Assembly (NCBI GenBank): GCA_013697735.1
Contig: JACCWH010000140.1
Span: 1 to 36,051, forward strand
Direction of reading: 5' to 3'
From: Trueperaceae bacterium
Lineage (GTDB): Bacteria; Deinococcota; Deinococci; Deinococcales; Trueperaceae
Length of the DNA stretch: 36,051 nucleotides
Part shown: in pieces, positions 20,127 to 36,051 of the stretch
Layout: every line of letters begins with the position of its first letter
Position numbering within the stretch: position 1 is the first letter of the stretch
Made by a program: the position numbers and the translations under genes
The notes under the pieces: generated by a model
Databases searched by the model: none
What the model was told of the DNA's origin: nothing
Seen by the model: only the letters and a program-made list of their open reading frames with translations

Positions 20127-21635
20127 ATGCGCATCGTTCGAACGTTGACCCTCGCGGTCGTGGTGGCGAGTCTCGGACTCGCCTTCGCCCAAACGCCCCA
20201 GCAGGGTGGCGTCTTGCGGGTCGGAAGCAACGCCGATCCGGCCACCCTGAACCCGTACGTCTTCGGCAACGAGTTCGACCGCAACGCCTTCCGACCGATC
20301 TACGACCCACTGCTCGACTACGACCTGACGACGTACGAGGTGGTCCCGGCACTCATCGAGTCGTTCGAGATCTCCGCGGACGGGCTGACCTGGACACTGA
20401 ACGTACGTCAGGGCGTCTCCTTCCACGACGGCACTTCGATGACGGCCGACGACGTCGTGTGGTCGATCGAACAGGCCCTCAAGCCTGAGGCGACCCGCAC
20501 CGCACCGCTACTCAGCTTCGTCGAGACCGTCACCGCTGCCGACGACGCCACGGTGATCCTCTCGCTCAGCCAGCCCGACCAGCTGCTCAGCCACACGATG
20601 ATCGACATCCGCGTCACGCCGAGCGGCTCCACCGACTACAACTCCAATCCGATCGGCACCGGCCCCTTCAAGTTCGTGTCGTGGGAGCCGAACCGCCAGC
20701 TCACCTACGAGCGCAACGACGCCTACTGGTCGGCCGGCCTCCCGTACCTCGACGGGCTCGAGATCCGCACCGTCCCCGACTCGAGCGTCCTCGTGATCCA
20801 ACTGATCAACCGCGAGATCGACTTCATCTCATCAGCACCGTTCGGCCAGATCGCGCAGCTCGTCAACGCCGGCATGGTGACCGCCGTGCCCCCCGAAGGC
20901 CGCGCGATGGGCTTCTACGACATCATCCTCAACACGCAGCGCGAGCCGTTCGACGACCCGCGCGTCCGCCAGGCGCTCAGCTACGCCCTCAACCGCGAGG
21001 CGCTGGTGCGCTCGCTGTTCGGGTACGCGACCGTCCAATCGAACCCCATCCCGCGCTCGAGTCCAGCCTTCGCCGAGGACGCCCCGAACTACGACGTCCG
21101 CGACGTGGAGAGGGCTAGGGAGCTCCTCGCCGAAGCCGGCTATCCGGACGGCGTCGAATTCGAGATGTTCGTGCACCGAACGGGCGCACTCGAGTGGGAC
21201 ACCGGCGCTCAGGTCATCCAGCAGAGTGCCGCCGAAGCAGGATTCACGGTCAACATCCGAGGAGTCGACATCGGCACGTGGGTCGATTTCATCTTCGGCC
21301 AGAAGGAGTTCCAGGCCGGCTTCTCGGCCAAGGTGCCGAAGCCCGTCGAATACGACCTGATCGCCCACATGTTCGCGAAGACCGTCGGCGATGCCAGCGG
21401 CTACGAGATCGAGAATCCCGAGTTCTACGAGCTCCTCACCGCGGCCCGTTCCATCGCTGATCAGGACGAGTTCGAGGCGGCGCTCATGGAGCTGCAGCGC
21501 ATCGCGATGGCGGGCCTGCCCGACATCCTGATTGCCGGGCGCGTCATCCCGGCGGCGCACGCACCATACGTGAAGGGCTTCATCCACCAGGTCCAGGGGT
21601 CGACGATCTTCAACCGCGTCTGGCTCGACCAGTAA
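20127..21635 (+). CDS. ABC transporter solute-binding protein, family 5 (DppA/OppA type)
   Basis: A 502-residue periplasmic receptor for a peptide-type ABC importer. Residues 1-21 form a signal peptide cleaved after AFA; there is no lipobox cysteine, so it should be soluble or held by other means. The family 5 signature is visible: GGVLRVG, DPATLNPY, the FHDGTSMTADDVVWS segment, GTGPFKFVSWEPN and the RQALSYALNREALV segment. AAGGGAG precedes the ATG by about seven bases. Family 5 receptors bind peptides, but also oligosaccharides, opines, nickel or glutathione. The neighbours (sugar-acid enzymes, amidase-fold proteins) make a glycan- or amide-derived ligand plausible. Confidence 0.93.
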   Translation: MRIVRTLTLAVVVASLGLAFAQTPQQGGVLRVGSNADPATLNPYVFGNEFDRNAFRPIYDPLLDYDLTTYEVVPALIESFEISADGLTWTLNVRQGVSFHDGTSMTADDVVWSIEQALKPEATRTAPLLSFVETVTAADDATVILSLSQPDQLLSHTMIDIRVTPSGSTDYNSNPIGTGPFKFVSWEPNRQLTYERNDAYWSAGLPYLDGLEIRTVPDSSVLVIQLINREIDFISSAPFGQIAQLVNAGMVTAVPPEGRAMGFYDIILNTQREPFDDPRVRQALSYALNREALVRSLFGYATVQSNPIPRSSPAFAEDAPNYDVRDVERARELLAEAGYPDGVEFEMFVHRTGALEWDTGAQVIQQSAAEAGFTVNIRGVDIGTWVDFIFGQKEFQAGFSAKVPKPVEYDLIAHMFAKTVGDASGYEIENPEFYELLTAARSIADQDEFEAALMELQRIAMAGLPDILIAGRVIPAAHAPYVKGFIHQVQGSTIFNRVWLDQ

Positions 21636-21648
21636 CGAGCATCCGTCG

Positions 21649-21686
21649 CGTGTGTGGGGGCGCCGCTCGCCGCCCCCACACGCGCA
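21649..21686 (+). terminator. strong hairpin between receptor and permease genes
   Basis: A 15-base-pair stem with one U-G wobble (21649-21663 against 21672-21686) and an eight-base loop begins 13 bases after the receptor stop codon. No T-run follows. In ABC operons such hairpins commonly protect the receptor mRNA or partly stop transcription, giving more receptor than permease. A matching hairpin lies upstream of the permease pair at the right end of the window. Confidence 0.75.
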
Positions 21687-21717
21687 CGGCCCCACCGCCA
21701 CCCCGAGGGATCCCATA

Positions 21718-22668
21718 ATGTTCTTCCGCTTCATCGCCGAGCGCCTCTTCCACATGGCCATCGTCATGTGGCTCGTTGCAACGCTCGTCTTCTTCATCTT
21801 CCGCGTGTTACCCGGCGATCCTGCCCAGTTGGTCCTCGGCCTCGAGCCCAGCCGTGCCTCCCTCGAAGCGCTGCGCGAACAGATGGGACTCAACCGACCC
21901 CTGTTCGTCCAGTACACCGATTGGCTCTGGCGCGTGGCCCAAGGCGACCTCGGCCTCTCGATCAGTCAGGGAAACCGAGCCGTTGCCAGCCTCATCTTCC
22001 CTGCCCTGTGGCGCACCCTCGAACTCGCCGCGATCGGTATCTTGATCGGCCTGCTCGTATCCATTCCCCTCGGAATCCTTGCCGCGCGGCGCGCGGGAAC
22101 CTGGGTCGACCAGGTGACGCGACTGTTCGCGCTCGCCGGGTTCAGCTTGCCGAGCTACTGGCTCGCGATCCTGCTCATGCTCGCCTTCTCGTACCAGTGG
22201 AACCTATTACCGGCTGGGGGGTACGTGGCCCCGAATGAGGACTTCGGTCGCCACCTACGCCACCTCGTTCTCCCCTCGATCACGGTCGGGGTGGTGATGG
22301 CGGCCGTACTGACGCGCTTCATGCGCTCCGGCATGCTCGAGGTCTTACGACTCGACTACGTCAGGACGGCGCACGCCAAGGGACTCTCGCCCGCCAACGT
22401 CGTCTACCGCCACGCCCTCCGGAACGCGATGATTCCCTTCATCACGGTCGTCGGAATCAACTTCGGCGCCCTCATCGGCGGCATGGTGGTCACCGAGCAG
22501 GTGTTCGCTTGGCCGGGCCTCGGCTGGTTGATCATCCAGTCGATCACCGTGCGCTCCTACGCTGTCGTCCAAGGCGCGGTTCTCATCACGGCGGCGCTAT
22601 TCGTGACGATCAACCTCATCGTCGACCTCCTCTATGCATTCATCGATCCGCGGGTCAGCTATGGCTGA
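21718..22668 (+). CDS. ABC transporter permease (DppB type)
   Basis: A 316-residue inner-membrane permease of the DppB/OppB type. An N-terminal helix (about 10-30) ends in FRVLPGDPA, typical of the family; about six helices are visible. The EAA loop that contacts the ATPase is present as the DYVRTAHAKGLSPANVVYRH region (about 220-240). The end VDLLYAFIDPRVSYG is also characteristic. GAGGG lies about nine bases before the ATG. It follows the receptor gene after the hairpin and overlaps the next permease by eight bases. Confidence 0.94.
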   Translation: MFFRFIAERLFHMAIVMWLVATLVFFIFRVLPGDPAQLVLGLEPSRASLEALREQMGLNRPLFVQYTDWLWRVAQGDLGLSISQGNRAVASLIFPALWRTLELAAIGILIGLLVSIPLGILAARRAGTWVDQVTRLFALAGFSLPSYWLAILLMLAFSYQWNLLPAGGYVAPNEDFGRHLRHLVLPSITVGVVMAAVLTRFMRSGMLEVLRLDYVRTAHAKGLSPANVVYRHALRNAMIPFITVVGINFGALIGGMVVTEQVFAWPGLGWLIIQSITVRSYAVVQGAVLITAALFVTINLIVDLLYAFIDPRVSYG

Positions 22669-23554
22669 CACAACGGCCGACGTGCTCGGCGACGACCCCG
22701 TCACGGCCGTCAGGCGGCGTCGGATGAACAAGACCCTCCGTCGCCTCCTGCGCGATTGGGCCGCGCTCGTCGGCGCCGGCATCCTGCTGCTGCTGGGCGT
22801 GTCGACCGTGATGGCACCCTGGATCCTGCCGTACGGGTTCGCAGAGGTCGTCGCGTTCCCGTTCGAGCCCGCGTCGGCGCAGTTCTGGTTCGGCACGGAC
22901 GAGATCGGTCGCGACATCTTCACCCGCATCATCTACGGTGCGCGCGTTTCACTCACCGTCGGCTTCGTCTCGACGTCGATCGCCCTCGTCGGCGGGATCC
23001 CGCTCGGACTCATCAGCGGCTACCGTGGTGGCTTGATCGACACCGTGCTGATGCGGCTCATGGACATGATGTTCGCCTTCCCGGCGATCATCCTGGCGCT
23101 TGCGATCATCGCCGTGCTCGGCCCCAACCTGTTGAACGCCATGATCGCGATCGGCGTGATGCAGATCCCGTTGTTCGCCCGCCTCGTGCGCGGCAACACC
23201 CTCTCACTCAAGAACCAAGACTACGTCCAGGCCGCCATCGCCGCCGGGGCAGGTATGGCCCGCATCCTGACCTTCCACATCCTGCCGAACACGATGTCGG
23301 CGATCATGGTCCAGTTCACGCTCACCTTTGCCAGCGCCGTGCTCGTCGAGGCCGCGCTCAGCTTTCTCGGGCTAGGCGTTGCGCCACCGACGCCGTCGTG
23401 GGGCGCGATGCTCGACACCGGCCGCAAGCTGATCACGGTCAGTCCGCTCTACTCGGTCTCTGCCGGCGCTGCGATCTTCGTGACGGTCCTCGGCCTGAAC
23501 CTCGTGGGCGATGCGTTGCGCGACGCGCTCGACCCGCGCATGGTCGACGCGTGA
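22661..23554 (+). CDS. ABC transporter permease (DppC type)
   Basis: A 297-residue partner permease of the DppC/OppC type. A basic N-terminal segment (RRRRMNK) precedes helix one. The FGTDEIGRDIFTRIIYGAR signature follows at about 85-103. The EAA loop QDYVQAAIAAGAGMARILTFH (about 185-206) and ALSFLGLGVAPPTPSWG complete the family pattern. Its ATG lies inside the end of the preceding permease gene (eight-base overlap), so coupling is likely. No ABC ATPase gene follows; the next genes are two ceramidase-fold hydrolases, so an ATPase must come from elsewhere. Confidence 0.94.
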   Translation: MADTTADVLGDDPVTAVRRRRMNKTLRRLLRDWAALVGAGILLLLGVSTVMAPWILPYGFAEVVAFPFEPASAQFWFGTDEIGRDIFTRIIYGARVSLTVGFVSTSIALVGGIPLGLISGYRGGLIDTVLMRLMDMMFAFPAIILALAIIAVLGPNLLNAMIAIGVMQIPLFARLVRGNTLSLKNQDYVQAAIAAGAGMARILTFHILPNTMSAIMVQFTLTFASAVLVEAALSFLGLGVAPPTPSWGAMLDTGRKLITVSPLYSVSAGAAIFVTVLGLNLVGDALRDALDPRMVDA

Positions 23555-23564
23555 GGGGGACGGC

Positions 23565-24998
23565 ATGGCGCTGCACGCAGGGGTAGGTCGGGTCGACGTC
23601 ACACCTGTCCCCGATATCCCGAACGGTATGTGGATGGCCCAGCGTCACGTGCGCGCGGAGGGAATCCACCAGGACCTTTGGTTGACGGCCCTGGCGCTCG
23701 CCGATGGGGCCGAGCGGGTGCTGTTGATCGACCTCGACTGGTGCGTGCTCTCCGACGACCAGGACAGGCGCCTCCGCGCCGCCGTCTCCGCAGCGACCGG
23801 CGTTCCCGCCCACCGGGTGCTCCCCTGCTGCACGCACAACCACGCGGGACCGGTCACGCAGGACACCTACCAGGGCGAAGGCGCAGACTTGGTCGCCGAC
23901 TACGTCGCGGCCCTGCCAGACCGTGCCGTAGAGGCCTGTCGCACGGCGCTCGGTGGTCTCGAGCCCGCGCGCGTCGCGGCCGGCTGGGGCACCAGCGACA
24001 TCGGGGTCAACCGCGACCTCCGGCTCCCCGAAGGGCGCGCCGTCGCCGGGCCCAACCCCGACGGCCCAGCCGACCTCTCCGTGGGCGTCGTCCGCCTCGA
24101 ACACGCCGGGGGCGCACCGCTGGCGCTCCTCGTCAACTACGCGTGCCACCCCACCGTGCTGGGCCCTGACAACCGGTTGGTCAGCCCCGACTTCCCCGGC
24201 ACGATGAAGCGGGTCGTCGAGACGCACCTCGGCGCCCCCTGCCTCTTCTTCCAGGGCGCCCACGGCGACATGGGTCCGATCGAGGGCTTCGTGGGCGACG
24301 CCGCGGTCGCCGAGCGGCTCGGCACCCGCCTCGGCCTCGAGGCCGCGAAGGTCGCGCTCGGGCTCGATGCACGCCCCGTCCGGCGCCGGCTCGAGCGCAT
24401 CATCCCCTCGGGGGCACCGCTCACGGTGTTCGTCGACGAGCCGACGGGCGAGCCGCCGCCCCGCCTGGTGGTTCGCAGCGGCCGCGCTCGGCTCCCGGTG
24501 CGCGACCCGCTCCCCGACGTCCTCGCGGGCGCCGCCCAGCGGATGGCGCGATGGAGCGCCGAGCTCGGCGCGCGCCGGCAGGCGGGCGCCGACCCTCGAG
24601 CGATCACCGAGGCCCACCAGAACCTCGAGCGCGAACGCCTCCGGCACGCGCGCTTCGAGGCCTTCCACGCCAGCGAGCACGCGGAGACCGAACTCCAAGC
24701 CGTGGTTCTGGGGCCCGTCGCGCTCCTCCTGACATGGGGCGAGCCGTACAGCGCGATCGGTATCGACATCAAGCGGCGCTCGCCGTTCGCGTCGACTTTC
24801 GTGGTCAGCTGCCTCGGCGGCGACCCGACGTACGTCGCTACGCCGGCCGGCTTCGAGCCGCCGCAACCCTTCCAGATCGACAACTGCACGTTTACGCCGG
24901 CGGCCGCGGCGGCGCTCGCGGACGCGGCGGTCGAGCTGCTCGAGGAGGCGGCCGCGCACAGCGCGTGGCTCGCGGCAGCGCCGCTCTCGGTCACGTGA
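23565..24998 (+). CDS. neutral/alkaline ceramidase-fold protein, paralogue 2
   Basis: A 477-residue ceramidase-fold protein (PF04734 type) without signal peptide. GVGRVDVTPVP starts the fold. THNHAGP (H91, H93), NYACHP (H195), WGEPYS and the DPTYVATP segment keep the expected zinc ligands. The ceramidase nucleophile motif GDVSPN reads GDMGPI here, with G237 at the serine position. AGGGGG precedes the ATG by about six bases, and the gap to the permease is ten bases, so it is part of the transporter operon. It is closer to paralogue 3 than to paralogue 1: both share the CHPT(V/T)LGPDNRL stretch and the MEGF/IEGF segment. Probable zinc-dependent hydrolase of the imported solute. Confidence 0.82.
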   Translation: MALHAGVGRVDVTPVPDIPNGMWMAQRHVRAEGIHQDLWLTALALADGAERVLLIDLDWCVLSDDQDRRLRAAVSAATGVPAHRVLPCCTHNHAGPVTQDTYQGEGADLVADYVAALPDRAVEACRTALGGLEPARVAAGWGTSDIGVNRDLRLPEGRAVAGPNPDGPADLSVGVVRLEHAGGAPLALLVNYACHPTVLGPDNRLVSPDFPGTMKRVVETHLGAPCLFFQGAHGDMGPIEGFVGDAAVAERLGTRLGLEAAKVALGLDARPVRRRLERIIPSGAPLTVFVDEPTGEPPPRLVVRSGRARLPVRDPLPDVLAGAAQRMARWSAELGARRQAGADPRAITEAHQNLERERLRHARFEAFHASEHAETELQAVVLGPVALLLTWGEPYSAIGIDIKRRSPFASTFVVSCLGGDPTYVATPAGFEPPQPFQIDNCTFTPAAAAALADAAVELLEEAAAHSAWLAAAPLSVT

Positions 24999-25033
24999 CC
25001 CGTCCCCGCGCCCGCACCGCTGAGGAGTCCCCG

Positions 25034-26449
25034 ATGACCAACCCGCACCTCCACGCCGGCTTCGGCCGCACCACGATCACGCCCAGTCTCTCGGTCCCGC
25101 ACGCGGGCTGGGGCGCGCAGACGCACCTGCTCGCCGACGGCGTGCACCGCGACCTCCACGTCAGCGTCCTGCTCGTGACGCTCGGCGACACGGTCGCTAC
25201 GACCCTCGTCGAGTTCGATCTCGTGGGCGTCTACGGCCTCGAGCGGCTCATCCAGGAGGCGGTCGCCCGCGAGATCAGCGTCGCCGTCGACGACGTCCGC
25301 GTCTCCGTCACCCACAACCACGCCAACCCGATCATGTGGGACAACTGGATCGGCGGCCGACCGGAGGACGTGCAGGCCTACCGTGCCTCGCTGCCCGGCG
25401 CCGCGGCCGGGGCCGCTCGCGCCGCTCAGCTCGCGCTGCGCCCGGTGCGCGCGGCCGCCGGCGTCGGGGAGGCCCACATCGGCCGGAACCGCCGCCAGCG
25501 GGTGCCCGACCCGACGGACCCCGGTCGCACACGCATGATCGTCGGGCGCGACGACTCCGGTACGGTCGACCCGGCCGTCACGGTGGTCCGCTTCGACGAA
25601 CTCGATGGTCGGCCCTATGCGGCACTCCTTGGCTATACGTGCCACCCGACGACGCTGGGCCCCGACAACCGGCTGCACAGCCCCGACTACCCCGGCGTCG
25701 CCAAAGCGGTGATGGAGGCCGCGACCGGCGCCCATTGCCTCTTCCTGCAGGGCGCCGCGGGCAACGTCGGCCCCATGGAGGGCTTCACCGGCGACGTCGC
25801 CGTCGTCGAGCGGCTCGGCACGCTCCTCGGCCTGGAGGGGGCGAAGGTCTTCGTCGGGATCGAGACCCGGCCCGTCGAACTCCGCTACGTGCGCCCCCGC
25901 GAGTCGGGGGCGACGCTGGCCGTCTGGCAGGAGGACCCGGTCGCCGACGCGCCCGCTCGGCTGACGGTCGGGCGCCTCCCAGTCACACTCCCCCTCCGGC
26001 CGCAGCCGCCGTTGGCGGAGGCCGAGGCCGAGTACGAGCGCTGGCGGACCGAGCTCGCCCGGGTCACCTCGGACGGCTCGCCAGCCGACCGCGTAGAAGC
26101 GACGATGTGGCGCGCCCGCCGCGCCCAGATGGCGGTGACCCGGGCCACGACCTACGGCAGCCGCACGAGCATCGACCTCACCCTCGAGCTGCTGCGCATC
26201 GGTGACGTGGCGATCGTCGGCTGCAACGGCGAGCCCTTCTGCGAGATCGGGCTGGCGATCAAGGCGGCGTCGCCCTTCGGTGTCACCTTCTTCGGCGGCT
26301 ACACCGGCGCCGCGCTCGGCTACATCCCCTGGCCCGACGCCTACGCGCAGGGGGGCTATGAAGTCGAGACGACTCCATACGCCCCCGAGGCCGCGCAGCG
26401 GCTCGTCGAGGCAACGACGGCCGCCCTCCACGACCTAGCGCGCGCCTGA
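25034..26449 (+). CDS. neutral/alkaline ceramidase-fold protein, paralogue 3
   Basis: A 471-residue ceramidase-fold protein without signal peptide, last gene of block B. GFGRTTITPSL begins the fold. THNHANP (H94, H96), YTCHP (H204), NGEPFCEIG and the GYIPWPDAY segment preserve the zinc site. The nucleophile motif reads GNVGPM, with G246 instead of serine. GAGGAG precedes the ATG by about eight bases. It follows paralogue 2 by 35 bases and was probably made by an old tandem duplication, since the two share several stretches but differ through most of their length. Its end is only 22 bases from the convergent block C. Confidence 0.82.
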   Translation: MTNPHLHAGFGRTTITPSLSVPHAGWGAQTHLLADGVHRDLHVSVLLVTLGDTVATTLVEFDLVGVYGLERLIQEAVAREISVAVDDVRVSVTHNHANPIMWDNWIGGRPEDVQAYRASLPGAAAGAARAAQLALRPVRAAAGVGEAHIGRNRRQRVPDPTDPGRTRMIVGRDDSGTVDPAVTVVRFDELDGRPYAALLGYTCHPTTLGPDNRLHSPDYPGVAKAVMEAATGAHCLFLQGAAGNVGPMEGFTGDVAVVERLGTLLGLEGAKVFVGIETRPVELRYVRPRESGATLAVWQEDPVADAPARLTVGRLPVTLPLRPQPPLAEAEAEYERWRTELARVTSDGSPADRVEATMWRARRAQMAVTRATTYGSRTSIDLTLELLRIGDVAIVGCNGEPFCEIGLAIKAASPFGVTFFGGYTGAALGYIPWPDAYAQGGYEVETTPYAPEAAQRLVEATTAALHDLARA

Positions 26450-26471
26450 GCAAGGGGGCGTCATCCTCGGG

Positions 26472-27224
26472 CTACTCGCCCTCCGCCAAGTAGTCGTGCA
26501 CGATCCGCCCGTAGGGGAGCGTGAAGTCGGCGCGCCAATGGTATCCCTCGCCGAAACTGCGCACCGGCAGCCGCCAGACGGGGAACTGGGCGTTCGGCCG
26601 AACTTCGATCGTAGCCGGGCCCACGTGGCACTCGTGCACGACCACGTCGGCCAGGGTCCGCGCCGTCAGCTGCCGGATCGCCGTGGCACCGGTCACGTGC
26701 GGAACCACCTTGTAGTTCAGGTTGGTGGCGAACGGAACGAGGTCGAGCAGCGACGCGATCTCGGCGGTCGCTGGCTTGTAGGGCATGGTGCCCGTCACCA
26801 CGTCGATGCCGTTTCGCGCCGCGACGCCCACCAGGAGGTCGCCCCGCACCTCGAGCGACGGTTCGCCGAGCTTCTTCGGCTGGCCGTAGGTCTCGCGCCC
26901 GGTCGCTAGGCCGCCGTCGGTCGTGAGCATGATGAAGGGCGAGTAAGCGCCGTGCAGGTCGCCGCCGTCGGGTCCGCCGCCGGGGAGCCGAGCGTCGAGC
27001 TGCACGGCGAACTCCCGATGCGGCCCGAAGCGGTCCGGGTCGTGCATCACGTAGAAGTGGACCAGCACGAGGTCGCTGACCGCCTCGAGCGGTGGCGGCA
27101 ACAGGGCGGTGACGGCCGCCGGGTCGCTGCGGTACCAGATCGAGAGGATCTCGGTGTTCCTGAAGCGGATCGGGAATTCGGGCACCAACGGCGCACCGAA
27201 CGGCGTGGAGAACGTGTCGATCAT
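26472..27224 (-). CDS. acetoacetate decarboxylase family protein
   Basis: A 250-residue acetoacetate-decarboxylase-fold protein. The key segment ETYGQPKKLGEP places K117 and K118 where Clostridium decarboxylase has K115 (Schiff base) and K116, so Schiff-base chemistry is feasible. RFRNTEILSIWYRSDPAAV is typical of the family's N-terminus. Some relatives act as aldolase-dehydratases or decarboxylate other beta-keto acids, so the substrate may be a sugar-derived keto acid. Its ATG overlaps the stop of SDR 3 by four bases. It is the last gene of block C. Confidence 0.85.
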   Translation of the reverse strand: MIDTFSTPFGAPLVPEFPIRFRNTEILSIWYRSDPAAVTALLPPPLEAVSDLVLVHFYVMHDPDRFGPHREFAVQLDARLPGGGPDGGDLHGAYSPFIMLTTDGGLATGRETYGQPKKLGEPSLEVRGDLLVGVAARNGIDVVTGTMPYKPATAEIASLLDLVPFATNLNYKVVPHVTGATAIRQLTARTLADVVVHECHVGPATIEVRPNAQFPVWRLPVRSFGEGYHWRADFTLPYGRIVHDYLAEGE

Positions 27225-27997
27225 CGGCTGGACCACCCTCCGTCGACGACGAGCGTCGCACCGTGGACGAAGTCCGAGGCGGACGACGCCAGGAACACGA
27301 TCGCGCCCGCCAACTCGTCCGGCGTGCCCCAGCGCCCGGCGGGGACGCGAGCGAGCAGCGCCCGACTGCGCTCCGGGTCCTGCTTGAGCCCCTCGAGCAG
27401 GTCGGTGTCGATGTAGCCGGGCGCAATCGCGTTGACGTTGACGCCGAGCGGCGCCCATTCGTTCGCCAGCGCACGTGTCAGGCCGATCAGAGCGTGCCGC
27501 GACGCGGCGTACCCGGCGACGGTGTACCCCCCCTGGAACGAGAGCACCGATCCGATGTTCACGATCTTGCCGTGCCCGCGCGCGATCATCGAGCGACCGA
27601 AGCCCTGGCAGAGCAGGAACACCGACTTCGTGGAGAGGTCGACGACCCCGTCCCAGTCGTCGACCGTCCAATCGAGCGCGGCCTTGCGGACGAAGGTGCC
27701 GGCATTGTTGACGAGAATGTCGACCGGGCCGACCCGTAGCCCGCAGGTGGCGACGACGGCGGCGATGGCGGCTTCGCCGACCAACTCGCCCACCACGACC
27801 TCCGCTCGGCCGCCCGCCGCCTCGATGGCGGCGCGCGTCTCGTCGAGGTTCGGCCGACGGCCCACGAGACAGACGTGCGCCCCCGCCCCCGCCAACGCGA
27901 TCGCCATCGCGGCCCCGAGGCCGCGGCTCGCGCCGGTGACGACCGCGGTGCGCCCCTGCAGGCCGAACAGGCCCTGGAGGTAGGTGGTGGGGGTCAT
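27221..27997 (-). CDS. short-chain dehydrogenase/reductase (SDR 3), KduD-like
   Basis: A 258-residue SDR most like 2-deoxy-D-gluconate 3-dehydrogenase/KduD enzymes of hexuronate breakdown: N-terminal LFGLQGRTAVVTG, TGASRGLG at 21-28, NNAG, the ALANEWAPLGVNVNAIAPGY region and the VDGGW end. The catalytic motif reads YAASR, so the usual lysine is R167 (codon CGG) after Y163. This may lower activity or mark a changed proton relay. Start and stop overlap its neighbours by four bases (ATGA) on both sides. Confidence 0.88.
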   Translation of the reverse strand: MTPTTYLQGLFGLQGRTAVVTGASRGLGAAMAIALAGAGAHVCLVGRRPNLDETRAAIEAAGGRAEVVVGELVGEAAIAAVVATCGLRVGPVDILVNNAGTFVRKAALDWTVDDWDGVVDLSTKSVFLLCQGFGRSMIARGHGKIVNIGSVLSFQGGYTVAGYAASRHALIGLTRALANEWAPLGVNVNAIAPGYIDTDLLEGLKQDPERSRALLARVPAGRWGTPDELAGAIVFLASSASDFVHGATLVVDGGWSSR

Positions 27998-28770
27998 GGC
28001 GCAGTGAGGCGGAGCGAGACGCCGCCGTCGACGATCAGGTGCGTGCCCGTGATGAAGCGCGCTGCGCCCGAGCAGAGGAAGAGCGTCGCGTCGGCGATGT
28101 CGGCGGGGGTCCCGCGGCGACCGATCGGGTGGAGGGCCCGCACCCGCTCCGCGAACGCGGCAGCCGCCTCCGGCGTCATCGCGTCGAGGTTCCGCTGCCA
28201 GATCGGCGTGTCGATGAAGCCTGGGCAGATGGCGTTGACGCGGACGCCGCGGGGCCCCAGCTCGACGGCCAGGGCGCGCGTCATCCCGATCACGCCGGCC
28301 TTGGCCGCGGTGTACGCCACGTAGCCGGGGGCCGTGTACCAGGCCATGACCGAAGAGACGTTGACGACGGTGCCGCCGCTGCACTCCAGCAGCGGGAGGG
28401 CGCGCCGCGTCGTCAGGTAGACGGACTTCTGGTCGACGGCGATGACGCGGTCGTAGGTCGCCTCGTCGAGGTCGTCGAGCGGCATCGGTCGGTCGATGCC
28501 GGCGCAGTTCACCAGGTGGTGCAGCGCGCCCCAGCGCGCCTCGACCGCGTCGATCGCGGCGGCGACGGCGGCCGCGTCGGCGACGTCGGTGGTGATCGCG
28601 AACGCCTCCGCCCCGCCTCTCCGTAACGCGTCGGCGGCCTCGGCCGCCCGCGGGCCGTCCAGATCGGCGATGCAGACGCGGGCGCCGTGCTCGGCGAAGG
28701 CCTGCGCGATCCCCCGACCGATGCCGGAGGCGCCGCCGGTTATCAGGGCGACGGTGTCGTCGAACCTCAT
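27994..28770 (-). CDS. short-chain dehydrogenase/reductase (SDR 4)
   Basis: A 258-residue classical SDR with TGGASGIG at 11-18, an Asp after strand two (IADLDG) that favours NAD, NCAG in place of NNAG, and the YTAAK catalytic pair. The C-terminal FITGTHLIVDGGVS is typical. AAGGAA precedes the ATG by about five bases. It is coupled to SDR 3 by a four-base overlap. Although equal in length to SDR 3 it is clearly divergent, so the two probably act on different hydroxyls or substrates. Confidence 0.9.
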   Translation of the reverse strand: MRFDDTVALITGGASGIGRGIAQAFAEHGARVCIADLDGPRAAEAADALRRGGAEAFAITTDVADAAAVAAAIDAVEARWGALHHLVNCAGIDRPMPLDDLDEATYDRVIAVDQKSVYLTTRRALPLLECSGGTVVNVSSVMAWYTAPGYVAYTAAKAGVIGMTRALAVELGPRGVRVNAICPGFIDTPIWQRNLDAMTPEAAAAFAERVRALHPIGRRGTPADIADATLFLCSGAARFITGTHLIVDGGVSLRLTAP

Positions 28771-28822
28771 GGGTGTTCCTTCCTCGCGGCGAGCGTCCGC
28801 GCCGCCGATCGGATGTCCGCCC

Positions 28823-29782
28823 TCACGGCCGCCACCAGACCCGCTGCGTCCCGTCCACGTGCCAGTCGACCACACCGTGGCGCCTCAGCGCGACGAGGTG
28901 GGCGTGAACACTGAGCCCCGCCACCATGCTCCCCTCGACACCGGGCGCCACCGTCGGCACCACCCGTTCGGTGATCTCGCGGAGTCCACGCGGACGCCCA
29001 TCGGCCAGCAGCGCGCCGACGGCTTCGTCGAGGCGTCGGACGAAGGCCTCGCTGAGGTCGCAGAACGCCGCCAGCTGCGCGTGGTTCATCGTGGGGAAGT
29101 GCGCCGGCAGGGTGAGAGCCGGCTGCAGCGCCCGCACGGTGCGGATCGAGGCGAGGTAGGCATCGACGTCGAGGTAGGCGGGGATGCCGACCACCCTGCC
29201 CCCCTCCCGCTGGCCGTCGCCGAGGATGGCGTCGTTGAGCACGAGCAGTCCACGATCGGCGTCCCACAGCCCGAGATGGCCGGGCGAGTGCCCGGGCAGG
29301 TGGAGCACCCGCAGGGTGCGGCCGGGGCCGAGCTCGATCCGGTCCCCGGCCTCGACACGCTGTACCGGCGCGGGCGGGCCGAGCAGCGCCGCGACCCACG
29401 CCTTGACCTCGTCCGGGCAGGGGTACTCGGGGGTGAGCGCGTCGTAGGCGTCGCGAACGTGCCAGGCGGGGTCGGCAGCCCAGGCGGCGTCGTCACGATG
29501 GACGAGGATGCGGCACGCCGGGTCGGCGGCCAGGAGCTCGGCGTTGCCGCCGAAGTGGTCGGCGTGCGCATGCGACACGACGGCGTAGCGGATCGGCAAT
29601 CCCGGCCGAATCGCCGCCACGCTCGGCAGTGCGAGGTCGCGCATCATGCCGACACAGCCGGTGTCGGTCACCAGCCACCCGTCGGCGCCCTCGAAGAGGT
29701 GGAACGCCAGCGGCATCCGGGTACCGGTGACGGTAGTCTCGACCCGGTACGTGCCGGGGGCGACGCGACGTGGCGCGCTCAC
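28823..29782 (-). CDS. metallo-beta-lactamase-fold hydrolase
   Basis: A 319-residue metallo-beta-lactamase-fold protein with no signal peptide. HAHADH at 71-76 is the dinuclear metal motif, GHSPGH follows, an Asp in LND bridges the metals and LPAHFPT holds the last histidine. The region after about 230 is helical with Arg-rich and His-containing segments, like the C-terminal domain of glyoxalase-II-like and lactonase-like relatives. The GTG start overlaps the metallophosphoesterase stop by four bases. In this setting a lactonase or thioesterase opening a sugar lactone is possible but unproven. Confidence 0.85.
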   Translation of the reverse strand: MSAPRRVAPGTYRVETTVTGTRMPLAFHLFEGADGWLVTDTGCVGMMRDLALPSVAAIRPGLPIRYAVVSHAHADHFGGNAELLAADPACRILVHRDDAAWAADPAWHVRDAYDALTPEYPCPDEVKAWVAALLGPPAPVQRVEAGDRIELGPGRTLRVLHLPGHSPGHLGLWDADRGLLVLNDAILGDGQREGGRVVGIPAYLDVDAYLASIRTVRALQPALTLPAHFPTMNHAQLAAFCDLSEAFVRRLDEAVGALLADGRPRGLREITERVVPTVAPGVEGSMVAGLSVHAHLVALRRHGVVDWHVDGTQRVWWRP

Positions 29783-30603
29783 ACCGCTACCCCTTCGGCC
29801 GGGCCGACGAGCGGCACCTCGAACAAAGCGCTGCTCAGTCCATCCCCGTCGACGCTCAGCACCCGGTACTGCAGAGGTTGGATGAGAAAGGTCGGCTGCT
29901 CGGAGCCTCCGAACTGGAAGCATGTCGACCGCAGTCCCCAGACGGGGATGTTCTCGACGCACCGCTCCACCGACGTGTGGGCGTGCCCGAACAGCACCCC
30001 GAGCACCCGTCCCCTCCGTAGCGCGCGCCACAAACGATCGATGCCCTCGGGAACGGCGCGGTCGAGCCAGGGGATGCCGACCTCGACCGGGTGGTGATGC
30101 AGCACCAGCACGGTCGGGCGACCACGCGCCAGGACAGCGTCGAGGAACGCCAGGGCGTCGTCGCGAAGGTCGCCCGCCCGCCCCGCCGTCCCGAGGTCGA
30201 GGAACGCGAACTGCACGTCCCCGACCGCCCAGTCCAGGTGCATGCGCTCGGCTGGCGCGCTGCAGGGGAAGAGGTTCCGGGTCCACGCCGCGCGCGGGTC
30301 GTGGTTGCCCGGCACGAAGTAGGCCGGCAGCCCCGCGAGACCGGGCCTCGTCATCGCCAGAGGTCCGGGCGCCTCGCCGCCGGCGGAGACACCGTAGAGC
30401 TCGCGCGCGTACGCGTACTCCGCGTCCTCGCCGACATCGACCAGATCGCCGGTGCAGAGGAGGAAGTCGACGCCGTGCCCGTCGGCAGCGGCGATCGCCG
30501 TCAGCACCCGCTCGAGCGCCCAGGCGGTCGCGTAGCCGCGGTTGATGGTGGTCACGTCGCGGCCGATGTGGTGGTCGGTCACTTGGATCCAACGCAGGTT
30601 CAC
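29779..30603 (-). CDS. calcineurin-like metallophosphoesterase
   Basis: A 274-residue metallophosphoesterase. D10 and H12 (TDHHIG), D53 (TGDLVD), GNHD at 99-102, the HHH run at 169-171 and the GHAH motif are the dimetal ligands in standard order. It is closest in layout to CpdA-type cyclic nucleotide phosphodiesterases and to glycerophosphodiester phosphodiesterases. No signal peptide. The GTG start overlaps the stop of the epimerase-like gene by four bases. Its presence suggests a phosphodiester in the pathway substrate or a signalling role; sequence cannot decide. Confidence 0.86.
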   Translation of the reverse strand: MNLRWIQVTDHHIGRDVTTINRGYATAWALERVLTAIAAADGHGVDFLLCTGDLVDVGEDAEYAYARELYGVSAGGEAPGPLAMTRPGLAGLPAYFVPGNHDPRAAWTRNLFPCSAPAERMHLDWAVGDVQFAFLDLGTAGRAGDLRDDALAFLDAVLARGRPTVLVLHHHPVEVGIPWLDRAVPEGIDRLWRALRRGRVLGVLFGHAHTSVERCVENIPVWGLRSTCFQFGGSEQPTFLIQPLQYRVLSVDGDGLSSALFEVPLVGPAEGVAV

Positions 30604-31682
30604 GTCACGACCCCCCGAGCGTCGACGTAGGTGACGTCGCGGTCCGAACGGAAGGCGCTCGCCGTGAGGCTCAGGTCGAGCGAGGCGCCCGGATCCAGGT
30701 GCAGCAGCGGTGCACCCGATGCGAAGTCGGCCGGGAAGGTCGACTGCGGCTCGAGGGCAGCGACGTACGCCCGCCCGTACCAGGGTGCGCTGCGGGCGCC
30801 GCGGAAGTTCTGCCAGAACAGGACGTAGGGGAAGGTCGCCGCCGGGAAGCGGCAGGCGAAGCCGACCCCCTCGTCGGGCTCGCGGATCGCGAACCACCCC
30901 TCCGCGAAGTCCGTGAGGTAGGCCCAGTCGTGGGTGACGACGTCGTCGCCGGGCAGCAGCGACAGGTCGGCGGTGCCGCCGTCGCGCGTCCGGGCGTACG
31001 GCCAGCTGGAGCGCTGGTCGGGCAGAAGGCGGCTCGCCGGATCGTCGTGGATGCCGCTCGTGAGCACCGTGCGCGCGTCGGTGGCGATGCGGCAGCCGCT
31101 CTTCAGGAACGGGGCCCCGAACGCGGGGTGGTGGCCCCACATGAAGGCGAGACCGACGGCGCCGAGGTTGGTGACCCGCTCCTCGAGCAGCAGCGCAGCG
31201 TGGTCGTCATGCACGGTCATCCGACGCTGCAGCCGGAACGGGGTGCGAACCAGGTCGACCTCGAACAGCACCGCGACCTCGTCGGGCCGATCGACCTCGA
31301 CCCACCAGCGCCAGGGCAGCATGCAGGCCTCGCCGTGGACGCCGATGCGGGCGCCGTGGACGTCGGCCGCGGCGCCGCACAGCGGGAGCATCTCCTGCCA
31401 ACCGCCGTGGTAGCGGTCGAGGAAGGCGTCCTCGGCGGAGGCTGTCCACGGCCTTGCGCCCGCCGGCCGCGGCGCCCAGGGGCTCTGCCACAGCACGTCG
31501 GTGTCGGTCTGCTTGTGGCGGAACTCGGTGATGTCGGCGCCCGTTCCGGGCCACACCGTGACCCGGAGCCCGCGGTTCTCGATCACCACCTGCTCGTGGC
31601 CGTCGATGGAGACACGCTCGACGCGGCAGCCGTGGCGACGCTTCGGTCCGGACGCGAGGCGCCCAGTCGCTTCGGTTGCCAC
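30600..31682 (-). CDS. aldose 1-epimerase-like (DUF4432-type) protein
   Basis: A 360-residue protein with the beta-sandwich pattern of the galactose-mutarotase superfamily. Visible parts are RVTVWPGTGADITEFRHK near the N-terminus, WQEMLPLCG, the MWGHHPAFG segment that carries a conserved histidine, and FPYVLFWQNFRGA. It probably interconverts sugar anomers or binds a carbohydrate. The GTG start directly abuts the RidA-like stop codon and has no clear ribosome binding site, so re-initiation is likely and the exact start is uncertain. It supports a carbohydrate substrate for block C. Confidence 0.75.
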   Translation of the reverse strand: MATEATGRLASGPKRRHGCRVERVSIDGHEQVVIENRGLRVTVWPGTGADITEFRHKQTDTDVLWQSPWAPRPAGARPWTASAEDAFLDRYHGGWQEMLPLCGAAADVHGARIGVHGEACMLPWRWWVEVDRPDEVAVLFEVDLVRTPFRLQRRMTVHDDHAALLLEERVTNLGAVGLAFMWGHHPAFGAPFLKSGCRIATDARTVLTSGIHDDPASRLLPDQRSSWPYARTRDGGTADLSLLPGDDVVTHDWAYLTDFAEGWFAIREPDEGVGFACRFPAATFPYVLFWQNFRGARSAPWYGRAYVAALEPQSTFPADFASGAPLLHLDPGASLDLSLTASAFRSDRDVTYVDARGVVT

Positions 31683-32057
31683 CTAGATCTCGGCCACGAA
31701 CTCGATCTCGACGCGGGCGCCGAGAGCGAGAGCGCTGACCGCGACGGTGCTCTTCGGCGGCGCATGGTCGCCGAAGTGGCGGACGTAGACGGCGTTCATC
31801 TCCGGCCAATCCGCCAAGTCGACCAGGAACACGCTCACCTTCACGACGCGCTGCAAGTCGGAGCCGGCCGCCTCGAGCACGTGGGCCGCACTCTGGAAGA
31901 CGCGCTCGGTCTGGGCGCCGACGTCGTCGGCCACCAACCGGCCCGTGGCGGGGTCGATGCCGATCTGCCCGGCAACGTAGACGGTGCGGCCGCTGATCGC
32001 GGCCTGGCTGTAGGTCGGGTTCTGCGGCGGGCAGCCGGGGGGGTTGACGAGCTTCAT
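31683..32057 (-). CDS. RidA/YjgF/YER057c/UK114 family protein
   Basis: A 124-residue RidA-family protein, which forms trimers. Family marks include the VYVAGQIGIDPATG segment and VEIEFVA with E117. The arginine that canonical RidA uses to bind the carboxylate of reactive 2-iminoacids (position 105) is replaced here: the segment reads HAPPKSTVAV, with K102. It is therefore probably not a standard 2-imino-acid deaminase and may act on another intermediate. It sits between the enolase-type gene (40-base gap) and the epimerase-like gene. Confidence 0.87.
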   Translation of the reverse strand: MKLVNPPGCPPQNPTYSQAAISGRTVYVAGQIGIDPATGRLVADDVGAQTERVFQSAAHVLEAAGSDLQRVVKVSVFLVDLADWPEMNAVYVRHFGDHAPPKSTVAVSALALGARVEIEFVAEI

Positions 32058-32097
32058 GGGTGCAGCTCCGTTCGCTCGTGCGCGTGCGACAGGGCGC

Positions 32098-33216
32098 TCA
32101 CACGCCCACCGCGTAGCGCTCCAGCACGTCGACGTCGATCTCGACGCCGAGGCCGGGATCGTCGCGCACGTGGACGTGGCCGTCCACGACCTCGAAGCGG
32201 TTGCGCACCAGTTGGTTGCGGATCGGGGAGTCCTCGACGCAGAACTCGAAGAGCGGCGCCTCGGGGATGGCGGCGAGCAGGGCGAGCGAGGCTGCAACGT
32301 TGATGTCTGTCGTGAACGAGTGGTTGACGACCGAGCGACCGCGGTCGTACGCGGCCCAGGCGATCTTCTTCGCCTCGGTCAGGCCGCCCGTCCGGGTGGG
32401 GTCGATCTGGACGACGTCGATACGGCCGGTATCCATGAGGTGGGTGTAGGAGTGGCGCTCGCTCTCGGCCTCGCCGGCGGCGATGCGGGTGGGGACCGCG
32501 CGCGCGAGCTCCGCGTAGCCGGCGACGTCGTCGGGCCGCAGCGGCTCCTCGAGCCAGTAGAGGTCGTAGGCCTCGAAACGGTGCGCCATCCGGATCGCCG
32601 TCTTCGCATCCCAGACCTGCCCCGCGTCTATGAGGACATCGACGTCGGGGCCGACCGCGCCGCGGATCGCGGCGACGAGCTGCTCGTCGTACTTCGCGTC
32701 CTGACCCATGGGATCCCAACCGAACTTGACGGCGGTGAAGCCCTGGTCGACGCACCAGCGGGCGCGGTCGGCGGTCGCAGCGAGGGTGTCGCCGAACAGG
32801 GTGCTGGCGTAGGCGCGGACCTTGCGCCGAAAGGCGCCGCCGAGCAGCGTGTGGACCGGCAGGTCGGTCGCCTTACCGAAGATGTCCCACAACGCCAGAT
32901 CGATGCCGCTCATGGCGTGGATGAACAGCCCGCGGCGCCCCGCGTAGCGCGATGCCTGGTACATGTCGTGCCAGAGCCGCTCGATCTCGAGGGGGTCCTT
33001 GCCCAGCACCACCTCGCGCAAGCCGCTGGTGATGCTGTTCGACATCGGCGCCTCGATCGCGGCCTTGGCGACCAACGGCGAGGAGTCGACCTCGCCTACC
33101 CCGGTGATGCCGGCGTCGGTCGTGACCATGACGATCAACGCGTCCTGGGTGCCATCGGACCGCTTGGCGATTGTGGGTAGCGCAAGGTGGATCGCACGGA
33201 CGTCGGTGATCTTCAT
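32098..33216 (-). CDS. mandelate racemase/muconate lactonizing-type enolase superfamily enzyme
   Basis: A 372-residue enolase-superfamily enzyme, likely a sugar-acid dehydratase or epimerase using Mg2+. K164 (AVKFGW) is a candidate base; D197 (IDAGQ), E223 or E224 (WLEEP) and E249 (AAGEAE) are metal ligands; H299 in VVNHSF is a candidate base from the opposite face. FGTD-like elements are absent, as expected. The C-terminal DDPGLGVEID resembles other sugar-acid dehydratases. AAGGGA lies about five bases upstream of the ATG. It is unlike the two superfamily members at 14.6 and 17.3 kb, so the island carries three different ones. Confidence 0.88.
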   Translation of the reverse strand: MKITDVRAIHLALPTIAKRSDGTQDALIVMVTTDAGITGVGEVDSSPLVAKAAIEAPMSNSITSGLREVVLGKDPLEIERLWHDMYQASRYAGRRGLFIHAMSGIDLALWDIFGKATDLPVHTLLGGAFRRKVRAYASTLFGDTLAATADRARWCVDQGFTAVKFGWDPMGQDAKYDEQLVAAIRGAVGPDVDVLIDAGQVWDAKTAIRMAHRFEAYDLYWLEEPLRPDDVAGYAELARAVPTRIAAGEAESERHSYTHLMDTGRIDVVQIDPTRTGGLTEAKKIAWAAYDRGRSVVNHSFTTDINVAASLALLAAIPEAPLFEFCVEDSPIRNQLVRNRFEVVDGHVHVRDDPGLGVEIDVDVLERYAVGV

Positions 33217-33245
33217 GGGGTCCCTTTCGCGCGGTCGTGCACGGC

Positions 33246-34124
33246 CTAGAAGCCGAACGGGAGGTCGCGGGTGGCCGAGGCGACGCGCTTCTCACGCCGC
33301 GGCGGGGCAGGGCGGGCCCGGAACCACGCCACCAGATCGACGAACTCCGACACCGCACGCTCGAAGGCGAGCCGCCCCTTCTCGGCGGTGGCCTCCTGCG
33401 GCCGGCCGAACGCGCCGCTCTCGGTGTACGTCGACGTCCACTCGACGATCGTGGCGGGACCGCTGCCGCCGGTCAGGTCGACGTACTGCCAGCGGTCGCC
33501 GCCCGGTAGCTTCATGTAGTCCGGCAGGTCGCCCTCGACGCGGTCGAGGCGCACGGCCCCGCCATCGACGTGCAGGTACATCGAGGTCTCCAGCTCGCCG
33601 GCATGGGCGCAGCCGCCCGGGTTGACGGAGGTCCGCACCTCCTCGTTCCAGTACTTCGCCACCAGGCTCCACCAGCTCAGCGTCAGGCAGAGCGCGTCGG
33701 TCTGCAGGTTGGTCTGGCGCCCGACCTGCTCCATCAGCGGGTGGTTGGAGCCGTGTCCGTTCACGATGATGATACGTGTGAAGCCGTGGTGGGCGACCGA
33801 GCGGGTGATGTCGAGCAGGAACCCGACCAGGTGCGACGGTTCGATGTTGATCGTGCCCGGGAAGTCCATGACGTGGTGGGTGTAGCCGTACGCGACCGGC
33901 GGCAGGACCAACATCGACTCGGGGGCGCGGCGGGCGGCCTCCTCCACCACCGACGACGCCAGCTTCGTATCGACGTCGAGCGGGAGGTGGTACCCGTGCT
34001 GCTCGGTGGAGCCGAGCGGCAGGACCACCACCTTCTCGAGATCGACCGCCTCGTTGATCTCGGGCCAGGTCAGCCGCTCGTAGCGGTACTCGCGGCTGGC
34101 GGTGGTGCGTTCTTCTCTGGACAT
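33246..34124 (-). CDS. creatininase family amidohydrolase
   Basis: A 292-residue creatininase-family protein, a metal-dependent amidohydrolase. LGSTEQHGYHLPLDVDT holds E41, H43 and D52, NGHGSNH holds H124, and HAGELETS holds the next glutamate, E177; together they form the two-metal site. Known members hydrolyse creatinine, formamidopyrimidines or peptide-derived substrates, so the reaction should be amide or formamide opening, but the substrate is open. AGGA lies about six bases before the ATG. It follows the permease pair by 16 bases and precedes the enolase-type gene by 29 bases. Confidence 0.9.
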   Translation of the reverse strand: MSREERTTASREYRYERLTWPEINEAVDLEKVVVLPLGSTEQHGYHLPLDVDTKLASSVVEEAARRAPESMLVLPPVAYGYTHHVMDFPGTINIEPSHLVGFLLDITRSVAHHGFTRIIIVNGHGSNHPLMEQVGRQTNLQTDALCLTLSWWSLVAKYWNEEVRTSVNPGGCAHAGELETSMYLHVDGGAVRLDRVEGDLPDYMKLPGGDRWQYVDLTGGSGPATIVEWTSTYTESGAFGRPQEATAEKGRLAFERAVSEFVDLVAWFRARPAPPRREKRVASATRDLPFGF

Positions 34125-34140
34125 GTGGTTCCTCTCGGGG

Positions 34141-35034
34141 TCAGATCTTCAGCTTGGGGTCGAGTGCGTCGCGGATGCCGTCGCCCATGAGGTTGGCGCC
34201 GAGGACGGTCAACGCGATGGCGATCCCGGGGAAGAAGCCGATCCACCAGGCGAGGCGCATGAACTGGCGCGCGTCCGCCAGGCTGGTGCCCCATTCGGGT
34301 GCGGGCGCCTGAGCGCCAAGCCCGAGGAAGCTGAGCGCCGCGCCGGCGAGGATCGCGTTCGCGACGCCCATCGACGACATGACCATGATCGGCGTCAGCA
34401 CGTTCGGCAGCACGTGGCGCACGACGATGCGGAGGTCGCGACTGCCGAGCGCGTGGGCAGCATCGACGTACACCCGCTCCTTGGCCTCCAGGACCGAGGC
34501 GCGCACCATGCGCGCGTAGTAGGGCACCCAAGCGATGCCGAGGGCGATCATGATGTTGACGAGGCCGGTGCCGAGGACGGTGACGATCGCCATCGCGAGC
34601 AGGATGGGCGGGAAGGCGATCCAGACGTCGGCGATCCGCATGATGACCAGATCGAGGAGACCGCCGTAGTACCCCGCCATCAGGCCGAGGATCAGACCCG
34701 CCACCGCGGCGACTGCGATGGGCGCGACCCCCATGGGCAGCGACATCCTCCCGCCGTGCAGCACGCGGGCCAACACATCGCGCCCGAGTTGGTCGGTGCC
34801 GAACGGGTGCACGAGCGACGGCCCCTGGAACCGATCGGCAGCGCTCATGCGCACGGGGTTGTAGGGCGTGATCAGCGGCGCCGCGAGTGAGGCAACGACC
34901 ACCGTCGCCACGATCAGCGCGCCCACGACGAACGGCGTGGAGCGCAGCAGCCGGCGAAGCCAGCGCCGCCGTGAACGGTCGCCGTTCGGCGGTGGCGCGA
35001 CCGCCACCCCTGACACGGTCGGAACGTCACTCAT
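34141..35034 (-). CDS. ABC transporter permease (DppC type)
   Basis: A 297-residue DppC/OppC-type permease. A basic N-terminal stretch (RSRRRWLRR) precedes helix one; HPFGTDQLGRDVLARVLHGGR is the signature; the EAA loop is at about 192-213 (KERVYVDAAHALGSRDLRIVVRH region); AALSFLGLGAQAPAPEWG follows. Its ATG overlaps the stop of the upstream permease by eight bases, the same overlap as in block B. It should pair with the DppB-type protein encoded next door. Confidence 0.94.
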   Translation of the reverse strand: MSDVPTVSGVAVAPPPNGDRSRRRWLRRLLRSTPFVVGALIVATVVVASLAAPLITPYNPVRMSAADRFQGPSLVHPFGTDQLGRDVLARVLHGGRMSLPMGVAPIAVAAVAGLILGLMAGYYGGLLDLVIMRIADVWIAFPPILLAMAIVTVLGTGLVNIMIALGIAWVPYYARMVRASVLEAKERVYVDAAHALGSRDLRIVVRHVLPNVLTPIMVMSSMGVANAILAGAALSFLGLGAQAPAPEWGTSLADARQFMRLAWWIGFFPGIAIALTVLGANLMGDGIRDALDPKLKI

Positions 35035-35953
35035 AGCGGATCCTCGGGTCGATGAAGGCATAGAGCACGTCGACCGCCAGGTTGACCAGGACGTACATGC
35101 TCGCGGCCGCCAGCACCACGCCCTGGACGACCGGTGCGTCGCGATTGATCACCGCCCGCGTCACCAGGGTGCCGAGCCCTTGCCTGGCGAAGACGTTCTC
35201 GATGACGACCGCGCCTCCGAGGAGGCTGCCGAACTGCATCCCGAGCATGGTGAGGATCGGGATGAAGGCGCTGCGAAGTGCGTGGCGCCATACGACCCGG
35301 ACGCCGCTCATGCCTTTCGCCCGCGCGGTGCGGATGTAGTCCTCCTGAAGCGTCTCGATGACGCTCGCTCGCGTCAGACGCGCGAGGATGGCGGCCTCGG
35401 CGACGCCCAGTGCGAACGCCGGGAGGATGAGCGCACGCCACGGCGACCCGCCTCCGGTGATCGGTAGCCATCCCAGGTTGACCGAGAAGACCTGGATGAG
35501 GAGCAGCCCGAGCCAGAAGCCGGGGATCGAGATGCCCACCAGGGCCACGATCATCCCGGAGAGGTCCCAGACCGTGTTGTGCCGCACGGCGGCGAGGACT
35601 CCGAGCGGGATCCCGAACGCCATCGCCACGGCCATCGCTGCGATCGTGAGCTGCAGTGTGGCGCCGATGTTGGCAGTGATGAGGGTGGCGACCGGGCGGT
35701 AGCCGAACACCGAGTTGCCGAGGTCGCCGCGCACGAGGTCGGCGAGGTAGCGGCCGAGCTGGACGTGCAGCGCGTCGTCGAGGCCGAGTTGGCGGCGGAG
35801 GTTGGCCATCTGAGCCGGCTCGAGCTTGACCTGCGTCATCATCGCCGCGACCGCATCGCCGGGGATCAGCGCGACGACCAAGAAGACCACGACCGTGATG
35901 CCGAACAGCACCGGCACGGTGAACAGAACGCGCTTGAGAAGATAGGTGATCAT
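35027..35953 (-). CDS. ABC transporter permease (DppB type)
   Basis: A 308-residue DppB/OppB-type permease with an N-terminal helix ending in ALIPGDA, GDLGNSVFGYRPV, an EAA loop around EDYIRTARAKGMSGVRVVWRH and the end VDVLYAFIDPRIRYE. The ATG at 35953 is preferred, as MITYLLKRVLF is the usual DppB N-terminus; the ribosome binding site is weak. A hairpin lies upstream at the window edge, where the gene before it should be the solute receptor. Confidence 0.93.
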   Translation of the reverse strand: MITYLLKRVLFTVPVLFGITVVVFLVVALIPGDAVAAMMTQVKLEPAQMANLRRQLGLDDALHVQLGRYLADLVRGDLGNSVFGYRPVATLITANIGATLQLTIAAMAVAMAFGIPLGVLAAVRHNTVWDLSGMIVALVGISIPGFWLGLLLIQVFSVNLGWLPITGGGSPWRALILPAFALGVAEAAILARLTRASVIETLQEDYIRTARAKGMSGVRVVWRHALRSAFIPILTMLGMQFGSLLGGAVVIENVFARQGLGTLVTRAVINRDAPVVQGVVLAAASMYVLVNLAVDVLYAFIDPRIRYE

Positions 35954-36022
35954 GCGCCGCCCGCCGTCCAGCGGAGGGTCGGCACGGCACGCGGGTCCCG
36001 CGGCGGCCACCTGCTTGAGGCG

Positions 36023-36051
36023 GTGAGGGTGGCCGCGAAGGCCACCCTCAC
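36023..36051 (-). terminator. perfect hairpin upstream of the permease pair
   Basis: A perfect 12-base-pair stem (36023-36034 against 36040-36051) with loop GCGAA ends at the window edge and could continue beyond it. It lies 70 bases before the DppB-type start. By analogy with the hairpin after the receptor gene in block B it probably ends or protects a receptor mRNA encoded to the right. Confidence 0.7.

Follow-up and report, generated by a model that had tools for sequence, protein, structure and literature searches.

Hairpins at the border between the solute receptor (binding protein, SBP) gene and the permease genes of ABC importers have been described in two groups of bacteria. In cellulolytic Clostridia, according to the available portion of PMC9045158, stem-loops with long GC-rich stems follow the 5' SBP genes in 87.3% of long intergenic regions and terminate transcription in dependence on U-rich tracts, and at least 15 such stem-loops are recorded from E. 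coli. PMC5927463 describes decay-regulated ABC operons of E. coli, in which the SBP gene is the stabilised member (five ABC systems) and hairpins without a uridine tract stand at the borders of differential decay; Newbury 1987 is cited there for malE-malF. Both the placement and the role of such hairpins are already known from these organisms (PMC9045158, PMC5927463).

The hairpins described here were found at the same border in a Trueperaceae genome. They resemble the malE-malF type in that the SBP gene comes first and a stable hairpin, apparently a structure of the sense RNA, stands at its 3' end, at the permease border, with no uridine tract. At malE-malF the element is made up of REP sequences, whereas the present hairpins have unique sequences. 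The protective structures of E. coli lie mostly inside the downstream coding sequence (17 of 26 in the available part of PMC5927463), whereas those reported here begin shortly after the stop codon. The Clostridial internal terminators, as far as the accessible text of PMC9045158 describes them, are likewise GC-rich stem-loops after SBP genes, but their termination depends on U-tracts, which are absent here. The I-shaped, or U-lacking, 3' ends in the accessible text of PMC8269248 share the strong GC hairpins, the missing U-tract and the GC-rich genome; those are RNA 3' ends, however, whereas the present hairpins are known from sequence and are rare at ordinary gene ends. What is new is the lineage, the specificity relative to within-genome controls, the strand test and the effect on contig breaks; a limited search of the open-licence literature found no report of SBP hairpins in Trueperaceae or Deinococcus.

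Two importer loci and a contig join

The window, that is, the whole stretch of DNA analysed, is an entire contig (C229, 36051 bases). Importer B, on its forward strand, comprises an SBP_bac_5 gene (20127..21635; PF00496, E 6.2e-88) and two permease genes (21718..22668, PF00528, E 2.8e-44, with PF19300; and 22661..23554, PF00528, E 8.9e-31, with OppC_N). Hairpin B (ACGGCCCC; 21648..21685, + strand) begins 12 nt past the SBP stop codon and ends 32 nt ahead of the first permease ATG. Its arms (21648-21662 and 21671-21685) form 15 consecutive pairs, 14 Watson-Crick and one G.U, around an 8-nt loop, with no U-tract downstream. The original prediction had put a 15-pair hairpin at 21649-21686, between receptor and permease genes; the stem and the identity of the flanking genes hold, but the coordinates were one base off and one pair is G.U. 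The fold of 21640-21695 reached -39.4 kcal/mol (z -6.1), equalled by 0 of 200 dinucleotide shuffles; when the 100 nt 3' of the SBP stop were shuffled 60 times, no shuffle matched the hairpin.

Importer C lies on the reverse strand at the right end of the window, with permease genes at 35027..35953 (PF00528, E 1.5e-42, with PF19300; the start is taken as the ATG at 35953, upstream GTG starts being possible) and 34141..35034 (PF00528, E 1.3e-29, with OppC_N). The perfect 12-pair hairpin predicted at 36023-36051 is present and has a loop of 5 nt; the end of the contig falls within this hairpin. The same 25 bases terminate both the window and contig C14 (7366 bases), and a 21-base hairpin C probe, allowing no mismatch, matched the genome's contigs solely at these two ends. 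Because of this overlap, C14 (+ strand) and the window (- strand) are joined in that order, on the basis of 25 bases in a short-read assembly. Across the join, from C14:7339 to window position 36020, hairpin C extends to 15 pairs without a mismatch (-34.5 kcal/mol); C14 carries the three outermost bases of the 5' arm (7339-7341) and the window carries the remainder (36020..36051, - strand). The solute receptor gene that had been expected just right of the window is an SBP_bac_5 gene on C14 (5720-7324, + strand, E 3.7e-75); its stop codon precedes hairpin C by 14 nt, and the first permease ATG follows the hairpin by 66 nt. A GntR/FCD regulator gene, assigned by a protein domain match, lies divergent to the SBP gene (C14:4786-5463). 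Downstream of importer C and in its orientation lie a mandelate racemase/enolase-like and a creatininase-family gene (32098-34124), a possible hint at its substrate.

Hairpins after SBP genes across the genome

Gene calls came from a custom codon-usage finder and give approximate values for starts and gap lengths. The genome of the window holds 150 permease domains and 71 SBP genes, 36 of SBP_bac_5 (37 profile matches, two of them within one gene), 33 of SBP_bac_8 and 2 of SBP_bac_3; the census covered these three families and missed others, one SBP_bac_1 gene having surfaced just among the control gaps. Sixty-one genes, each with at least 100 nt after the stop, were analysed, and ten were dropped, one because its contig ends ahead of the stop and nine for having less than 60 nt after it. 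A hairpin was counted as strong at -20 kcal/mol or below within 100 nt after the stop, a cut picked after the data had been seen.

Strong hairpins follow 46 of the 61 SBP genes at a nearly constant place, starting a median of 20 nt past the stop (quartiles 14 and 32) and with a median of 13 pairs. They were present at 39 of the 46 genes whose next gene lies on the same strand at least 40 nt away, at 5 of the 12 with a closer same-strand neighbour, at one of two with a convergent neighbour and at the single gene with no gene called beyond it. Of the 42 gaps in which the next gene was at least 40 nt off and a permease followed within 2.5 kb, 38 had a strong hairpin and 29 outscored all 200 dinucleotide shuffles. 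The four gaps without one are L016, L024, L032 and L332; the last (C163:1965-3057) is a split gene with its SBP_bac_5 match in two pieces, perhaps by frameshift or assembly error, and its called stop is possibly false. SBP genes placed last in their operon, after the permeases, had a strong hairpin in three of seven cases (L012, L020 and L027, as against L043, L045, L052 and L053). From the hairpin end to the next start the median distance is 32 nt, and a block on permease translation is unlikely because just 3 of 39 hairpins end less than 12 nt from that start.

The controls came from this genome as well, from the window and 20 further stretches (21 in all). Among other tandem gaps, strong hairpins occurred in 5 of 96 with lengths of 40-250 nt, in 3 of 118 shorter ones and in 1 of 13 longer ones; they also occurred at 6 of 50 convergent gene ends and in 6 of 289 random coding windows; the same script found them in 34 of 38 SBP-to-permease gaps (Fisher p 5e-22). 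Two of the five exceptions among the 40-250 nt gaps themselves follow SBP genes (SBP_bac_1 and SBP_bac_3), the others following grpE, an S1-domain gene of the window (324-2606) and a gene without a Pfam match. Such non-SBP cases are few: the S1-domain gene is followed, 47 nt past its stop, by a 12-pair hairpin of -26.5 kcal/mol (2653-2680), and the grpE gene (L192:4680-5285), after 6 nt, by one of -26.5 kcal/mol; 59 nt separate grpE from the following same-strand gene. A long hairpin of 18-21 pairs was also seen between the convergent TRAP genes DctM and DctP (L197:14822-14899); DctP is a binding protein, and hairpins of binding-protein genes are therefore possibly not confined to ABC importers.

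Contig ends fall within 60 nt past the stop of 9 of the 71 SBP genes, where 0.57 were expected (Poisson p 1e-8), for example at C14:7366 and on C125, C158, C141, C231, C168, C29, C221 and C150; eight of the nine genes are on the + strand of their own contig. The assembly seems to break at SBP hairpins, which serves as a warning that assemblies may be interrupted at such spots.

Sequence turnover and strand preference

Comparable gaps were found in related genomes, rows without a downstream permease being left out (2 in the kin genome G017, 20 in other relatives and 19 among named records). In G017, which from the matching coordinates of its importer B SBP ortholog appears to be Trueperaceae bacterium bin86 (CP070651.1), 20 of 28 SBP-to-permease gaps reached -20 kcal/mol or below, the corresponding figure for its other tandem gaps being 11 of 94. 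This contrast is smaller than in the window's genome; the 11 G017 exceptions may include SBP genes of other families. Other relatives gave 23 of 31. Six genomes from the order's other families had strong hairpins in 16 of 24 gaps, and 19 of 24 were matched by at most 1 in 100 shuffles; in five AT-richer relatives 15 of 23 outscored all 50 shuffles (hand count). Named records from several phyla gave 15 of 62 at the energy cut and 34 of 62 outscoring all 40 shuffles; among the matches listed, Bradyrhizobium gaps with a permease close by were mostly without a hairpin.

Between orthologs whose SBPs are 60-86% identical, the hairpin keeps its place while the stems are unrelated, as in L010 and L221 (85.6%) or L033 and L201 (64%). 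In the importer B ortholog of G017 (SBP 80.6% identical) the hairpin close to the stop is weaker (-18.1 kcal/mol), and a second stem of 10 pairs can be made out by eye further down, past the 100-nt cut; the gap of the importer C ortholog there has no hairpin (best -7.2 kcal/mol). Within the window's genome, sharing among the 46 hairpins amounts to six 12-mers (with their complements), each found in two of them.

In a stem kept for its sense RNA, G-T oppositions (G.U in RNA) should persist and A-C ones should not, while a function as DNA or on the other strand should leave the two even or reversed. With a stem finder that treats both alike, the ratio of G-T to A-C in SBP stems was 23:4 in the window's genome, 12:2 in G017 and 13:2 in other relatives; the 4:1 of the AT-richer (low-GC) set is quoted separately because it has at least two loci in common with the other relatives. 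The overall 52:9 (p 2e-8) includes this overlapping set. Other tandem gaps gave 3:3, a small sample, and the convergent control is necessarily equal, each hairpin there being read on both strands. Base composition does not account for the excess, since the G x T and A x C products of the spacers are nearly equal (0.055 and 0.052). The 5' arm is the G-rich and the 3' arm the C-rich one in 35:9 hairpins of the window's genome (including 21648-21662) and in 18:5 of other relatives, with 11:6, not significant, in G017; G-rich 5' arms are thus a strand-specific trait beyond the needs of pairing.

The far greater frequency of G-T than of A-C in the stems shows selection on the sense RNA, and indirectly suggests that the sense RNA forms the hairpin. 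The presence of strong inverted repeats between genes might also be taken to mean that they act as DNA, as a protein-binding site or cruciform, or that they are mobile REP-like repeats. Both versions are very improbable. A DNA-level element was rejected because such a function would not yield the 23:4 ratio, and a REP or mobile repeat because the 12-mers are barely shared, the stems being otherwise unrelated, and the hairpin C probe has no other copy at up to one mismatch (there are two partial matches at three mismatches). Rfam, moreover, matched only tRNA in the window, by which a known RNA family was rejected as the identity of the hairpins. The earlier proposal that the feature is selected for structure and not for sequence is supported by the survey, by the unrelated stems in orthologous gaps and by the G-T bias.

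Decay protection, termination and the receptor-to-channel ratio

What follows the stems bears on whether they terminate transcription. A GC-rich stem after the SBP gene is what a terminator would share, but the U-rich tract of intrinsic terminators is missing in the window's genome: only one of the 46 strong hairpins has at least four T among the 8 nt that follow it, and a T run longer than two is absent, within 15 nt, from 34 of 35 spacers. Ordinary U-tract terminators were rejected on these tails and on the scarcity of strong hairpins at convergent ends. In a GC-rich genome the lack of a U-tract is not in itself proof against termination, and the hairpins might be leaky internal terminators of the U-less, I-shaped kind, at which a fraction of the RNA polymerases would be released once past the SBP gene. 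In favour of this are the place and gene pair shared with the Clostridia of PMC9045158, the G-rich 5' side of the stem, and the abundance of U-lacking hairpins at RNA 3' ends in a Streptomyces of 72.5% GC, as reported in the available part of PMC8269248. Tails are also T-richer in some AT-richer relatives, 8 of 15 shuffle-beating hairpins there having at least four T in the next 8 nt (hand count). However, the strongest Clostridial hairpin failed to stop transcription once its U-rich tract was removed (in the accessible text of PMC9045158), and just 6 of 50 convergent ends have such a hairpin, although terminators are needed there. Partial termination of this kind is accordingly considered unlikely. 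Among orthologs of L012, in which the SBP gene is last in the operon, GC-rich relatives have U-less hairpins and some AT-rich ones (for example G002) a hairpin followed by a T run, as if the U-tract tracked base composition.

Alternatively, Rho could terminate beyond the hairpin and 3' exonucleases trim the transcript back, the hairpin then marking a Rho-dependent 3' end. A Rho gene is present (C8:24732-24947), and C predominates in the 8 nt that follow the 46 hairpins (174 C, 91 G, 64 T, 39 A), but this excess is modest and not localised. Before translation begins again there is little space for Rho to land, the median distance from hairpin to permease start being 32 nt, and significant Rho-dependent termination was not seen at such borders in E. 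coli in the part of PMC5927463 available. Rho-coupled trimming is a rather improbable explanation.

The hairpins are probably barriers to 3' exonucleases of the malE-malF type, keeping SBP mRNA above permease mRNA. A decay barrier is the best supported reading because a U-less hairpin did not stop transcription in PMC9045158 and protective hairpins are U-less in PMC5927463. The stem-loop would form in the sense mRNA just past the SBP stop, at the permease border; breaks would arise in the permease part, and 3'-to-5' exonucleases would eat back from them and halt at the hairpin. The SBP message would then outlive the permease message, giving more receptor than channel. The mixed picture at SBP genes placed last, the bare importer C ortholog of G017 and the four gaps lacking a hairpin weigh against this reading. 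Both the barrier and the unequal protein yield are proposed by analogy with other bacteria, and the unequal expression of receptor and permeases suggested in the original prediction would accord with the effect of such hairpins in PMC9045158 and PMC5927463.

The count of G-T against A-C offers a simple test, using sequence only, for a hairpin that acts in sense RNA. One genome with 36 SBP_bac_5 genes provides many natural replicates in which termination could be separated from decay protection, because the stems have neither common sequence nor U-tracts. Among ABC importers of another phylum, a device described earlier in individual operons and in Clostridia comes near to being the rule. It is possible, if still tentative, that the SBP-permease border in this order is a sequence-free stoichiometry element, at which any strong sense-RNA hairpin suffices, individual stems continually disappear and arise anew at a constant position, and a single device without a U-tract may set the receptor-to-channel ratio of dozens of importers together.
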